Shown: positions 60,357-64,000 of the stretch, one piece after another | Numbering within the stretch: position 1 is the stretch's first letter | How the letters are laid out: each line of letters begins with the position of its first letter | Source of the DNA: Spirochaeta lutea | GTDB lineage: Bacteria > Spirochaetota > Spirochaetia > DSM-27196 > Salinispiraceae | Assembly (NCBI RefSeq): GCF_000758165.1 | Contig: NZ_JNUP01000031.1 | Location: 1-64,000 of the forward strand | Reading direction: 5' to 3' | Length of the DNA stretch: 64,000 nucleotides | Notes under the pieces: generated by a model | Told to the model about the DNA's origin: nothing | Databases searched by the model: none | The model's input: the letters and a program-made list of their open reading frames with translations, nothing else | Made by a program: the position numbers and the translations under genes

Positions 60357-60745
60357 ACCACCTAGTATCGGGAAGTTACATACAATGGGTAAGTACAACT
60401 CAAATACGGGAAACCTTGTCCTGGGGAATCTGAAGATGGCATAATAATGTGCTACCTTGGTAGCCTGCTGCTCTTTGGAGATACTTGGTCATGAAGGAGT
60501 AAGGATGCCGTCGGCACTGCATGACCGTACCATCGGTAGAGCGGGTAATACGATGCAGACCTCCCCGTGGGCGGCACTCCCCCTACTCTCCCCCTGGGCC
60601 TGGTTTCGGGGAACCCCGGTGTATTCGGCGCACGGTTCATGCAAAGCGGCGTTTTGAATGAACCTCAGAGCGTAGTAAAATAAAGAAACAATTGTCAGCC
60701 CGTACTTTGTTGTACTGTTATGAAAGACGGGTGAGGAGCGTTCCG
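60357..60745. other. Intergenic region of 389 bp between divergent genes
   Basis: It lies between the aldolase gene (minus) and the sigma factor gene (plus). Short open frames lack ribosome sites. A TTGTCA at 60693-60698 with TACTGT 15 nt later is a weak promoter candidate for the sigma operon. A GGAAC near 60609, with 17 nt before ACGGTT, could be an ECF-type element; both are speculative. Confidence 0.35.
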
Positions 60746-61228
60746 GTGCAGATTAATATTGATGACCTTTACCGAACCTACGGAGCCATGGTCTTCCGGC
60801 GGTGTCTTTCCATTCTCAAGGATGAGGATGCTGCCCTTGATATCATGCAGGAGGTTTTTGTCGTGCTGTTACGAAAACAAAAGACCTTAGATTCCCGTGG
60901 TCCCTCAAGCTTGCTGTACACCATGGCAACCAATTTGAGTATTAACGAATTACACCGCCGCCAAAACCAGCAAAAGCGCATTGAGCAAACCAGAGAAGAT
61001 TTTGAGATCCAGTCCCAGGATAACGCGGACGAACTGGTGCTGACCCGGCACTTTCTTGACCGTATTTTCACCCGGGAGGATGAGACCACAAAAACCATCG
61101 CCTGGTATCACTATGTAGAGGGCTACACCCTGGAAGAAACCGCTCATTTAGTAGGAATGTCCATGTCCGGGATACGCAAGCGCCTGAGAAAACTACGGGA
61201 ACGGGGCCTGGCCCTGAAGGAGGTGTAA
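60746..61228 (+). CDS. ECF-type RNA polymerase sigma factor
   Basis: 160 residues with sigma-70 regions 2 (INIDDLYRTYGAMVFRRCLS, DALDIMQEVFVVLL-type helix) and 4 (YVEGYTLEETAHLVGMSMSG, then IRKRLRKLRERG). Regions 1 and 3 are missing, as in ECF factors. GTG 60746 is chosen because GAGGAG lies seven bases upstream. It begins an operon with a membrane protein and a secreted caspase-like protein; that order suggests a sigma factor controlled by a membrane anti-sigma factor, with the caspase in its regulon or signalling path. Confidence 0.9.
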   Translation: MQINIDDLYRTYGAMVFRRCLSILKDEDAALDIMQEVFVVLLRKQKTLDSRGPSSLLYTMATNLSINELHRRQNQQKRIEQTREDFEIQSQDNADELVLTRHFLDRIFTREDETTKTIAWYHYVEGYTLEETAHLVGMSMSGIRKRLRKLRERGLALKEV

Positions 61229-61230
61229 GA

Positions 61231-62031
61231 ATGAGCTCTCGGAAACTTTATTATTCAGATGGAAGCAGAGTCTCGGACCTCACCGTGGAACAGGCGGTCT
61301 TGGGCGAGCTGGATCCTGAGAGGCTGGCCGAACTCAGAAAAATTCCGGGGTTTGATCAGGAGGTCCGGCGAAGGCGGGCAGAAGATCAGCAGTTTTTCGA
61401 AACCCACCCCCCTAAGACCATGATCGAGCAGATTGAAGCTCGGGCATCTGAATCACCTCGAAAAACCACTATTCTCCCCTTTCCAATCATGGGCGGCGTC
61501 GCTGCTGCTGCAGTCCTGGTAGTTCTACTGGCCGCAGGTCCTCTATCTGCACTGTTTACCAACCCGGGCGCACCTACTGACCAGGGGATCCGGTCCAAGG
61601 GCCTTGAACCGAGTCTGCACATTTTCCATCCCGACGAAACCACCCCCCAGGGGGTCCGTGAATTAGAGGATCGAAGCCTCGTCTCGGCCTTCGACACCCT
61701 GCAGATCAGTTATAATGCCGCAGGAAGGCGGTTCGGGGCGATCATTTCCATCGACGGCCGGCAGGTGGTGACCCTTCACCACCCTGAGCATTACAACGCC
61801 ACCCCGGAACTGACCCCCAGCGGCGAGGTCCTATTACCCTACGCGTACCAAATCGATGACGCCCCGGACCTGGAGCGGTTTTACCTTATTACTGCAGCCG
61901 AAGGCTTTGACCTTGCCGGGCTCTTAGATCGAGTGAAGCGGCAGGCTGCCACCCAGTCCTGGTTGATCACCGGGGAGCTTGAATTGGGGGAAGATTACCA
62001 GGTTGAGATGATCACCCTGAGGAAGGAGTAA
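61231..62031 (+). CDS. membrane protein, probable anti-sigma factor
   Basis: 266 residues starting two bases after the sigma gene, with AAGGAGG before ATG 61231. A 75-residue cytoplasmic, charged N-terminus (LTVEQAVLGELDPERLAELR) leads to one membrane helix (GGVAAAAVLVVLLAAGPLSALF at about 88-110) and an extracytoplasmic domain of about 150 residues with beta-rich pattern (RFGAIISIDGRQVVTLHH). There is no zinc-binding HxxxCxxC. The position and topology are those of an anti-sigma factor; the sequence itself does not place it in a known family. Confidence 0.65.
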   Translation: MSSRKLYYSDGSRVSDLTVEQAVLGELDPERLAELRKIPGFDQEVRRRRAEDQQFFETHPPKTMIEQIEARASESPRKTTILPFPIMGGVAAAAVLVVLLAAGPLSALFTNPGAPTDQGIRSKGLEPSLHIFHPDETTPQGVRELEDRSLVSAFDTLQISYNAAGRRFGAIISIDGRQVVTLHHPEHYNATPELTPSGEVLLPYAYQIDDAPDLERFYLITAAEGFDLAGLLDRVKRQAATQSWLITGELELGEDYQVEMITLRKE

Positions 62032-62033
62032 CC

Positions 62034-64000
62034 ATGAAACACGTAAAACCGGGGGTCGTATTCCTCTTTTTGCTTTTTGTTCCTACCCTCTATCTCGGCG
62101 GCCAGAGCGATCTTTCACCGGTCCGCCGCTTCGGGATTTTTATCGGCGCCAATGATGGCGGGCCTCAGCGGGAAACCCTGCGATGGGCCGTGTCTGACGC
62201 CAAGAGTATGCAATCGGTTCTCTCGGAATACGGGGGTATCCATCCCCGGGATACCCTGCTCCTGGAGGATCCCGGGCTGGCAATGGTTACCCAGCGGTTT
62301 CGAGAGTTAAGTTCGCTTTTACAGGAGGCCAAGTCCAGTTCCAGACGGGTGGAGCTCCTGGTGTATTACTCCGGTCACTCGGATGAGCAGGGCTTGATGC
62401 TGGGAAGTGAGCACCTGGAGTACCGGCAACTGCGGAATCTCATAGGCCAGGCCCAGGCCGATGTATCCATCGCGATCCTTGATTCCTGCGCCTCCGGAGC
62501 CTTTACCCGGACCAAGGGCGGGGTTCGTATTGCGCCGTTTTTGGTGGATGATTCCGCCGATATGTCCGGTCATGCCTATCTCACCAGCGCTTCGGAAACC
62601 GAGGCGGCCCAGGAATCCGACCGGATCGGTGCCAGTTTCTTTACCCATTTTATGGTTACCGGGTTGCGCGGAGCGGCTGATCATTCCAATGACGGCCGGG
62701 TAACCCTCAACGAGGCATATGAATATGCCTTCTCGGAGACCTTGAACCAGACCCAGAGCACCTATGCCGGGCCCCAGCATCCTAGTTACGATATTCAACT
62801 CAACGGCAGCGGCGATCTGGTTTTAAGTGATTTGACTGCAGCTAGTTCCGCCCTGACCCTGCCCCGGGACCTGGAAGGCCGGGTATACATTCGAACAGCC
62901 GAACACCGCCTGATCGCCGAGGTGGCGAAGGCTCCGGGCAGACCGGTTACCATCGGACTTGCTCCGGGAATATACACCATTTCCGTTACGAACCCCGATG
63001 GACTGTTGAGCACCTCCACCCGGGTTGGGATGTCCGGCCCCACCATGCTGCTCCGGGAGGATTTCCGTACGGGGCCCCTGGAGTACGCCCGGGTGCGCGG
63101 AGAGGTTCAACGCTCTCTGGACCCGAGCCTTCCCTCGGTACCGGGTGAACCGGTGTATCTGCCGGTCTACCCCAGCATTTGGCCGGGATTCTCCCTTTTC
63201 GGGCTGCATGATCCGGTAGTGACAAGCTTCTCAATCAGCCCGCTCTTGGCTGATGCATCCCAGGTGGCAGGGCTGCAGGTAGGGGGAATCGCCGGCTTCA
63301 CCGGAACCCTCTACGGTCTCCAGGTGGGAGGCATCTTCGCCCAGGGCAAGACCATCAATGGCCTCCAGATCGGTGGAATATTCGCCACGGCGGACCAGGT
63401 GAACGGCAGCCAGATCGGGGGGATTTTTACCCGGGCCGAGGACGTTAAGGGCGTGCAGATTGCGGGTATTACTGCAGTTTCCCGGGGAGATGTACGCGGG
63501 GCTCAGATTTCCCCCGTCAATGTCGCCCAAGGCACGGTCTACGGTTCACAGATCGGGGTAGTGAATATTGCCCATGATATGTACGGACTGCCCATTGGAC
63601 TATTCAGCTGGATAAAGAACGGAATTCATGACATTGCCTTCTGGTTCACCGGCGAGGAGGAGGGATGGGTTGGTTTCTTAAACGGGAGCCGGAACTTTTA
63701 TACGAGTTTCGCCGCAGGCGTCCAGACCGAACCGGGGATTGCCGAGCTTGAGGGCCTGACGGTGAGTGCTTCGGTAGGATACCGGGCAAGCCTGGGCAGC
63801 CTCTTCTTCATCGATGCTGAATTAGGGCTGAAACGCCTCGGTACCGGAGCCACGGCTGGAGAACGCTTGGCAGGCATCTTTACCGGCCCGGGTTCTAATA
63901 CCTTCCCGAATGCCCGCCTTCGGGCAGGCATCAGCCTGGGGAGTCTCAAGGGGTTTGTAGGCTTGGACGTGGACGGCTACATCCAGGGGTACACCAATCC
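62034..64000 (+). CDS. secreted caspase-fold protein with surface repeats (3' end outside window)
   Basis: At least 655 residues, open to the edge. A signal peptide (VVFLFLLFVPTLYLGG) precedes a caspase/C14-type domain: VYYSGHSDEQG with the catalytic His at about 115, and ILDSCASGAF with the catalytic Cys at about 152. A linker of about 200 residues follows. Then, from about 413 to 519, eight repeats of 15-17 residues occur with the pattern G-x-Q-[IV]-G-G-I (GLQVGGIFAQGKTIN, GLQIGGIFATADQVN), as in spirochaete surface-repeat proteins. The rest is beta-rich, perhaps a barrel. GGAAGGAG lies five bases before ATG. It is the third gene of the sigma operon. Confidence 0.82.
   Translation, partial: MKHVKPGVVFLFLLFVPTLYLGGQSDLSPVRRFGIFIGANDGGPQRETLRWAVSDAKSMQSVLSEYGGIHPRDTLLLEDPGLAMVTQRFRELSSLLQEAKSSSRRVELLVYYSGHSDEQGLMLGSEHLEYRQLRNLIGQAQADVSIAILDSCASGAFTRTKGGVRIAPFLVDDSADMSGHAYLTSASETEAAQESDRIGASFFTHFMVTGLRGAADHSNDGRVTLNEAYEYAFSETLNQTQSTYAGPQHPSYDIQLNGSGDLVLSDLTAASSALTLPRDLEGRVYIRTAEHRLIAEVAKAPGRPVTIGLAPGIYTISVTNPDGLLSTSTRVGMSGPTMLLREDFRTGPLEYARVRGEVQRSLDPSLPSVPGEPVYLPVYPSIWPGFSLFGLHDPVVTSFSISPLLADASQVAGLQVGGIAGFTGTLYGLQVGGIFAQGKTINGLQIGGIFATADQVNGSQIGGIFTRAEDVKGVQIAGITAVSRGDVRGAQISPVNVAQGTVYGSQIGVVNIAHDMYGLPIGLFSWIKNGIHDIAFWFTGEEEGWVGFLNGSRNFYTSFAAGVQTEPGIAELEGLTVSASVGYRASLGSLFFIDAELGLKRLGTGATAGERLAGIFTGPGSNTFPNARLRAGISLGSLKGFVGLDVDGYIQGYTN

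Follow-up and report, generated by a model that had tools for sequence, protein, structure and literature searches.

To our knowledge, little is understood of what caspase homologues do in bacteria, and these proteins are often discussed in connection with cell death. We analyzed the first 64,000 nucleotides (the window) of contig NZ_JNUP01000031.1 of Spirochaeta lutea, near whose end an extracytoplasmic function (ECF) sigma factor, a predicted single-span anti-sigma factor and a predicted exported caspase with a C-terminal barrel are encoded side by side. The nearest described arrangement is that of four Myxococcus xanthus metacaspase operons which contain sigma-70 factors, and operons combining sigma-70 factors and metacaspases were also listed for Anaeromyxobacter, Haliangium, Sorangium, Ralstonia and Fibrobacter (Asplund-Samuelsson et al. 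2012, PMC3501461). As at the S. lutea locus, a prokaryotic caspase homologue is encoded with a sigma-70 factor in a conserved operon, but the passage on these operons reports the association only. It describes neither an anti-sigma factor nor export, a barrel, a shared cut motif, a promoter or a mechanism, and does not include spirochaetes among the genera named. Those operons most likely belong to the same broad family as the members described below from a deltaproteobacterial phylum. The first-pass annotation of this DNA had considered the system undescribed; this is only partly correct, since the pairing of metacaspase and sigma-70 factor in an operon has been on record since 2012.

Four other groups of systems invite comparison. 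In the type III-E CRISPR system Csx29-Csx30-CASP-sigma, the caspase relative Csx29, a CHAT protein, was found experimentally to cleave Csx30, which inhibits an ECF sigma factor (PMC10028731), so that a caspase relative is able to release an ECF sigma factor, as we propose here. That system differs in that a cytosolic TPR-CHAT protease is switched on by RNA and acts on a soluble inhibitor, with no export, barrel or membrane step. In the DegS-RseA-sigmaE cascade, which responds to outer-membrane protein folding, a single-span anti-sigma factor is cut in the periplasm and then by a site-2 protease (PMC7593790). Cascades of this type resemble our proposal in the single-span anti-sigma factor and the order of site-1 and site-2 cleavage, but the site-1 proteases treated in that paper are serine enzymes (DegS, DegP, SipS/SipT and Prc), with no caspase and no outer-membrane barrel. 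Metacaspases (C14B), for example Arabidopsis metacaspase-4, have in common with the S. lutea protein the fold, the catalytic dyad, acidic S1 residues and a predicted Arg/Lys specificity, whereas the S. lutea protein is bacterial, predicted to be exported, apparently extended by a beta-sandwich and a barrel, and encoded in a sigma factor operon. Finally, two-gene EACC1-caspase systems likewise encode a protein with a single transmembrane (TM) segment beside a caspase, but that protein has short extensions only, on both sides of the TM segment, and neither sigma nor anti-sigma factors are mentioned in the paper (PMC7159879). Within the open-licence literature, our searches turned up no account of a sigma/anti-sigma pair whose protease is an exported caspase fused to a barrel.

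The three genes span positions 60746-64085 on the forward strand, each gap between them being 2 nt. The contig, 110,280 bases long in a genome of 3.5 Mb in 69 contigs, extends beyond the window, and the caspase gene could be read to its end.
60746..61228, + strand: ECF sigma factor, 160 amino acids, GTG start (Pfam Sigma70_r2, TIGR02937)
61231..62031, + strand: membrane protein, putative anti-sigma factor, 266 amino acids (AlphaFold2 model with a predicted local distance difference test (pLDDT) score of 86.7)
62034..64000, + strand, gene end at 64085: predicted exported caspase-barrel protein, 684 amino acids at full length, running 85 nt past the window
The next gene, which by eye encodes an alpha-amylase-like protein, is in the opposite orientation, and the operon thus consists of three genes. 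Coordinates and Pfam matches bear out the first-pass description of three closely spaced genes for an ECF sigma factor, a single-span membrane protein and a C14 peptidase. The sigma protein matches Sigma70_r2 (E 1.6e-11), shows a weak region 4 and scores over the cut-off of TIGR02937; by sequence it is an ordinary ECF type, with regions 2 and 4 and lacking regions 1 and 3.

Searching 60 relatives and the genome_contigs collection yielded 38 distinct homologous loci. The order sigma factor, membrane protein, caspase was found in 37 of the 38, from Spirochaetota, Aminicenantes/Acidobacteria and one 'Deltaproteobacteria' metagenome-assembled genome (MAG), and the genes at these 37 loci mostly overlap or sit a few bases apart; the sole exception (L048) is an interrupted fragment close to a contig end. 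The arrangement is therefore not a chance observation, and the conservation of gene order that the first-pass annotation had wished to see in relatives extends across phyla. When the membrane protein was used as query, it was detected in 49 of 296 Spirochaetota genomes, and a caspase lay downstream in all but one of the 30 loci drawn, the exception being at a contig edge. The membrane-protein family was present in 90 of 117 genomes of the phylum to which the 'Deltaproteobacteria' MAG belongs (probably Myxococcota), often in several copies, and most loci examined there had the same three genes; for the phylum that includes the Aminicenantes MAG the figure was low (5 of 149 genomes). Pairwise distances among the three proteins were correlated (0.81-0.86 over 101 loci, with 0 of 500 permutations as high), indicating that the genes are co-inherited. 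In four genomes of one family and genus group (G253, G286, G325 and G338) the anti-sigma profile matches cross one in-frame TAA, which may be an upstream stop within an extended match or a true break.

Taken with the catalytic residues, predicted fold, shared motif and promoter motif, which like gene order and co-inheritance were computed, the conservation of the operon marks it as a real and widespread signalling module, probably a proteolytic one. We consider it moderately likely that it encodes an ECF sigma system which regulates itself and relies on the caspase for site-1 cleavage of the anti-sigma factor, made after K or R. In the resting state the cytosolic N-terminus of the membrane protein would hold the sigma factor. 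Upon an envelope signal the exported caspase would become active, probably through self-cleavage after K161, and would then cut the linker of the anti-sigma factor after K123 (K123-G124), just outside the inner membrane. The trimmed anti-sigma factor would in turn be cut within the membrane by a site-2 protease, for which the genome has one PF02163 gene, and cytosolic proteases would complete its degradation; the sigma factor, once freed, would direct transcription of other targets and, from the putative promoter at 60685, of the operon that encodes it. All of the cleavages, their sequence in time and the nature of the signal are inferred.

The assignment of the membrane protein as a predicted anti-sigma factor is based on its homologues, its topology and its position. 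In the AlphaFold2 model a cytosolic helical part (residues 16-73) is followed by a single TM helix (89-109), a disordered linker of low confidence (110-122) and a confident periplasmic beta domain (128-265). The S. lutea protein itself had no anti-sigma family match in Pfam or NCBIfam, but 18 of 37 homologues match the anti-sigma factor model NF052375 (best E 8.2e-9, the one with a displayed score being below the cut-off) and 11 of 37 match PRK13920 (anti-sigmaE), one displayed range covering the N-terminal 100 residues of the homologue; the S. lutea protein appears too diverged to match these models. Seventeen of the 37 homologues match DUF4384, and together with the missing family match in S. 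lutea this would suit a different assignment, in which the membrane protein is a DUF4384-like periplasmic partner of the caspase and the sigma factor merely drives both genes. The anti-sigma matches among the homologues, the helical cytosolic part with its single TM segment, and the sigma factor gene directly upstream in 37 loci all speak for the anti-sigma assignment instead, and we regard the periplasmic partner as very improbable. A functional call from the fold of the periplasmic domain was dropped, as the comparison gave general beta-sandwich matches only (best Z 9.5, to an S-layer domain).

The domains of the third protein are as follows.
62034..62102, + strand: putative signal peptide, about residues 1-23 (from sequence; helix 6-21 in the model; family N-termini hydrophobic throughout)
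62115..62804, + strand: predicted caspase-fold peptidase domain, about residues 28-257 (Pfam PF00656; VIA-align structure comparison)
62376..62378, + strand: catalytic His115 (YYSGHSDE), in 111 of 111 pairs
62487..62489, + strand: catalytic Cys152 (DSCASG), in 111 of 111 pairs, with D150 as a predicted S1 residue
62820..63074, + strand: beta-sandwich domain in the AlphaFold2 model, residues 263-347
63216..64000, continuing to 64085, + strand: predicted outer-membrane beta-barrel, residues 395-684 (AlphaFold2 model, Foldseek, C-termini)
The protein matches Peptidase_C14 (PF00656) with 30.7 bits against a cut-off of 21.4 (E 3.3e-7), and its best PDB sequence matches are metacaspases. The modelled fold is metacaspase-like. 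VIA-align matched the AlphaFold2 model to Arabidopsis metacaspase-4 (Z 20.3 over 208 residues, root-mean-square deviation 2.8) and gave Z 19 for animal caspases, and the Foldseek list was headed by legumains. The model thus contains, at residues 28-269, the caspase fold that the first-pass annotation expected within residues 30-250, and the His and Cys that it had recognized in GHSDEQ and DSCASG stand in the right order. Clan CD enzymes that prefer basic residues at P1 have acidic residues in two places, on helix alpha1 and immediately ahead of the catalytic Cys; examples are Asp95 and Asp211 of TbMCA2 and Asp365 and Asp462 of MALT1, two enzymes that cut after Arg or Lys (PMC4357240). By sequence alignment rather than superposed coordinates, D55 and D150 correspond to these residues; D55 is kept in 116 of 116 caspases and D150 in 115 of 116, and E190 and E194 are invariant. 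Since acidic residues are conserved at these S1 positions, the caspase is predicted to be an Arg/Lys-specific peptidase. Membership of the EACC1-associated caspases was rejected (NF047832, 65 bits against a cut-off of 140), as was membership of CRISPR or phage defence, for which PADLOC gave no convincing match.

The evidence that ties the caspase to its neighbor is a new x-x-[K/R]-G motif common to the anti-sigma linker and the caspase loop, which we counted in 129 distinct membrane-protein homologues and 111 partner caspases.
61591..61602, + strand: predicted anti-sigma cleavage site R121-S-K123-G124, around DQGIRSKGLEPS (homologue conservation)
62508..62522, + strand: predicted autoprocessing site R159-T-K161-G-G, where the disordered inter-subunit loop 162-172 begins
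The end of the anti-sigma linker reads R-x-K-G, with K in 128 of 129 homologues, G in 128 of 129 and R in 108 of 129. Within the linker, conservation peaks at K and G, with 4.25 bits versus about 1 around them (positions 110-119 do not exceed 1.25 bits), and the motif lies just outside the membrane, about a dozen residues away. Site-1 cuts usually fall at about this distance from the membrane. Behind the catalytic Cys, in a loop with pLDDT below 50, the caspases carry the same R-x-K-G (K161 in 111 of 111, G162 in 110 of 111, R in 94 of 111), and the loop at this place is where caspases and metacaspases self-cleave. In both partners P2 is variable and a low-confidence loop adjoins the motif. 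Among C14 proteins from outside the operon the R-x-K-G signature was mostly absent, some having KGG or RG nearby. This shared motif gives further sequence-level support to the protease-linked signalling that the first-pass annotation had proposed.

In a diverged subfamily of the deltaproteobacterial phylum the caspase loop has sequences such as GARG, TARG and RPRG at this place, and the adjoining membrane protein has GARG, TARG or RARG. P1 is R in both partners in 15 of 17 of these pairs (the others being one K/R and one R/K), and over all pairs the counts are K/K 112, R/R 15 and mixed 3. The joint switch from K to R is striking, but it is a single event. The R-type operons L249-L252, L261-L268 and L273 also have a conserved F shortly before the motif in the TM protein, and some of their caspases have C-terminal TM helices in place of the barrel.

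A shared K/R-G motif and acidic S1 residues would also be expected if the anti-sigma linker were a pseudo-substrate, whose K or R lodges in the S1 pocket of the caspase and restrains both sigma factor and protease until release frees the two, the true targets being elsewhere. Clan CD offers precedents for residues that inhibit by occupying S1, among them Arg126 of the gingipain RgpB prodomain (PMC4357240). Against this, the motif sits in a flexible stretch next to the membrane, as a cleaved site would, and no clamp domain is evident; we judge such inhibition distinctly unlikely.

Upstream of the sigma gene there is a candidate for the promoter by which the system would regulate itself.
60685..60711, + strand: putative ECF promoter GAAAC-N18-TGTT, which fits the relatives' consensus upstream of sigma genes
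The pattern G[any][A/G]AC-N18-TGTT occurred upstream of the sigma gene in 34 of 64 loci, whereas shuffled sequences gave 0.33 expected and a maximum of 3. A typical form in a relative is aaaGTAACA-N17-GTGTTA, and the consensus is GTAACA-N17-(G)TGTTA. Its single match in the window (0.56 expected) lies 35 nt before the start codon of the sigma gene, so that in position and form it is a putative ECF promoter. Autoregulation of the operon by its sigma factor is the natural reading of this motif together with ECF biology.

Several observations weigh against the caspase as site-1 protease of its neighbor. An outer-membrane-anchored caspase would have to reach a site near the inner membrane, a geometry that the proposal leaves unexplained. 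On the tree, the K/R switch amounts to essentially one event, with two changes per partner, and co-variation of the R at P3, tried as further support, was discarded, as Fisher's test gave p 1e-4 when the tree was ignored and the association was not significant in independent pairs. In a third caspase group (DACDSYFFVHSRG; L270, L271, L275, L276, L278-L285 and L287-L289) the RG behind the Cys is retained while no TM partner was found upstream, and the caspase half of the motif may thus be a general autoprocessing site. Lastly, in an operon variant from one Myxococcota-type group (L181-L184, L187 and L189) the third gene encodes a barrel only and no caspase, its product of about 200 amino acids matching the caspase profile at positions 576-723 only, and yet the anti-sigma factor keeps its R-x-K-G (TRSKG/TRIKG). 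Operons of this kind make it less probable that every anti-sigma factor is a substrate of its own neighbor; the genomes concerned carry further copies of the system, and a caspase acting in trans is possible.

The retained motif of the barrel-only operons would also be expected if the caspase were an output of the system, that is, a co-regulated envelope effector, with some other input acting through ordinary site-1 proteases and the K-G of the anti-sigma factor serving folding. Its place in the operon and the putative autoregulation suit a member of the regulon equally well, and K123-G124 stands four residues ahead of the first strand of the periplasmic domain. A folding constraint does not lead one to expect K to become R in the anti-sigma factor where the caspase loop has R, however, and the exceptional conservation of K and G adjoins a low-confidence segment. 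On balance we think the caspase-as-output explanation rather unlikely, and we continue to favor the caspase as site-1 protease.

The C-terminal barrel bears on the nature of the signal. From residue 395 the AlphaFold2 model has about 17 strands, most of 12-15 residues, joined by tight turns. After the caspase-fold matches, Foldseek returned almost exclusively outer-membrane barrels (OmpA, PagL, Ail, OmpX, NspA, FadL and porins), at E 0.004 and weaker, and the family's C-termini (FFTGLRF, WFIGVRI and FFGGIQF) resemble assembly signals of outer-membrane proteins. The protein, and with it the spirochaete caspases of this operon, is therefore predicted to carry a C-terminal outer-membrane barrel, which lends support to the anchoring at the outer membrane guessed in the first-pass annotation. 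The LA_2272-type repeat suggested there scored over its cut-off in the full protein (LA_2272_repeat, NF047436, 34.7 bits against 25), and in S. lutea these 15-residue repeats form the first half, or first strands, of the predicted barrel; the count of eight G-x-Q-[IV]-G-G repeats was generous, as four are exact and about four more are degenerate, with a period of 15 residues. Third genes that encode a barrel only suggest that the barrel has an importance of its own. An assembled barrel would keep the caspase far from the cut site, and it is tempting to speculate that the barrel is perhaps the sensor, failed or disturbed assembly setting the caspase loose in the periplasm, close to its substrate. 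That the caspase-barrel is sensor and site-1 protease in one, with failed assembly permitting it to cut the anti-sigma factor at a K/R-G that is the counterpart of the site at which it is itself activated, is in our view a tentative and somewhat doubtful extension.

Other caspase homologues were noted in passing. The only other Peptidase_C14 gene of the S. lutea genome (L004:5673-6617) encodes a protein of 314 amino acids with an N-terminal hydrophobic stretch and Cys, lacks the K-G loop motif and has no adjoining sigma factor; directly upstream of it lies a gene for an exported-looking protein of 212 amino acids. A separate Spirochaetota caspase family (L203-L216) has the active-site sequence DCC with KGG nearby and no adjoining sigma factor, and one spirochaete genome (G105) has ten Peptidase_C14 matches, an unusual expansion.

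With the proposal set out here, a large caspase group spread over several phyla gains a defined role in signalling, together with a specific substrate and the bond at which this is predicted to be cut. If it is true, a class of cysteine proteases would join the serine site-1 proteases of sigma factor cascades, and caspase-type proteolysis would take part in bacterial transcriptional signalling. If the barrel is in addition the sensor, the system would be a caspase-based counterpart of DegS-RseA in several phyla. Bacteria may thus use a caspase to pass signals from the surface to their genes.

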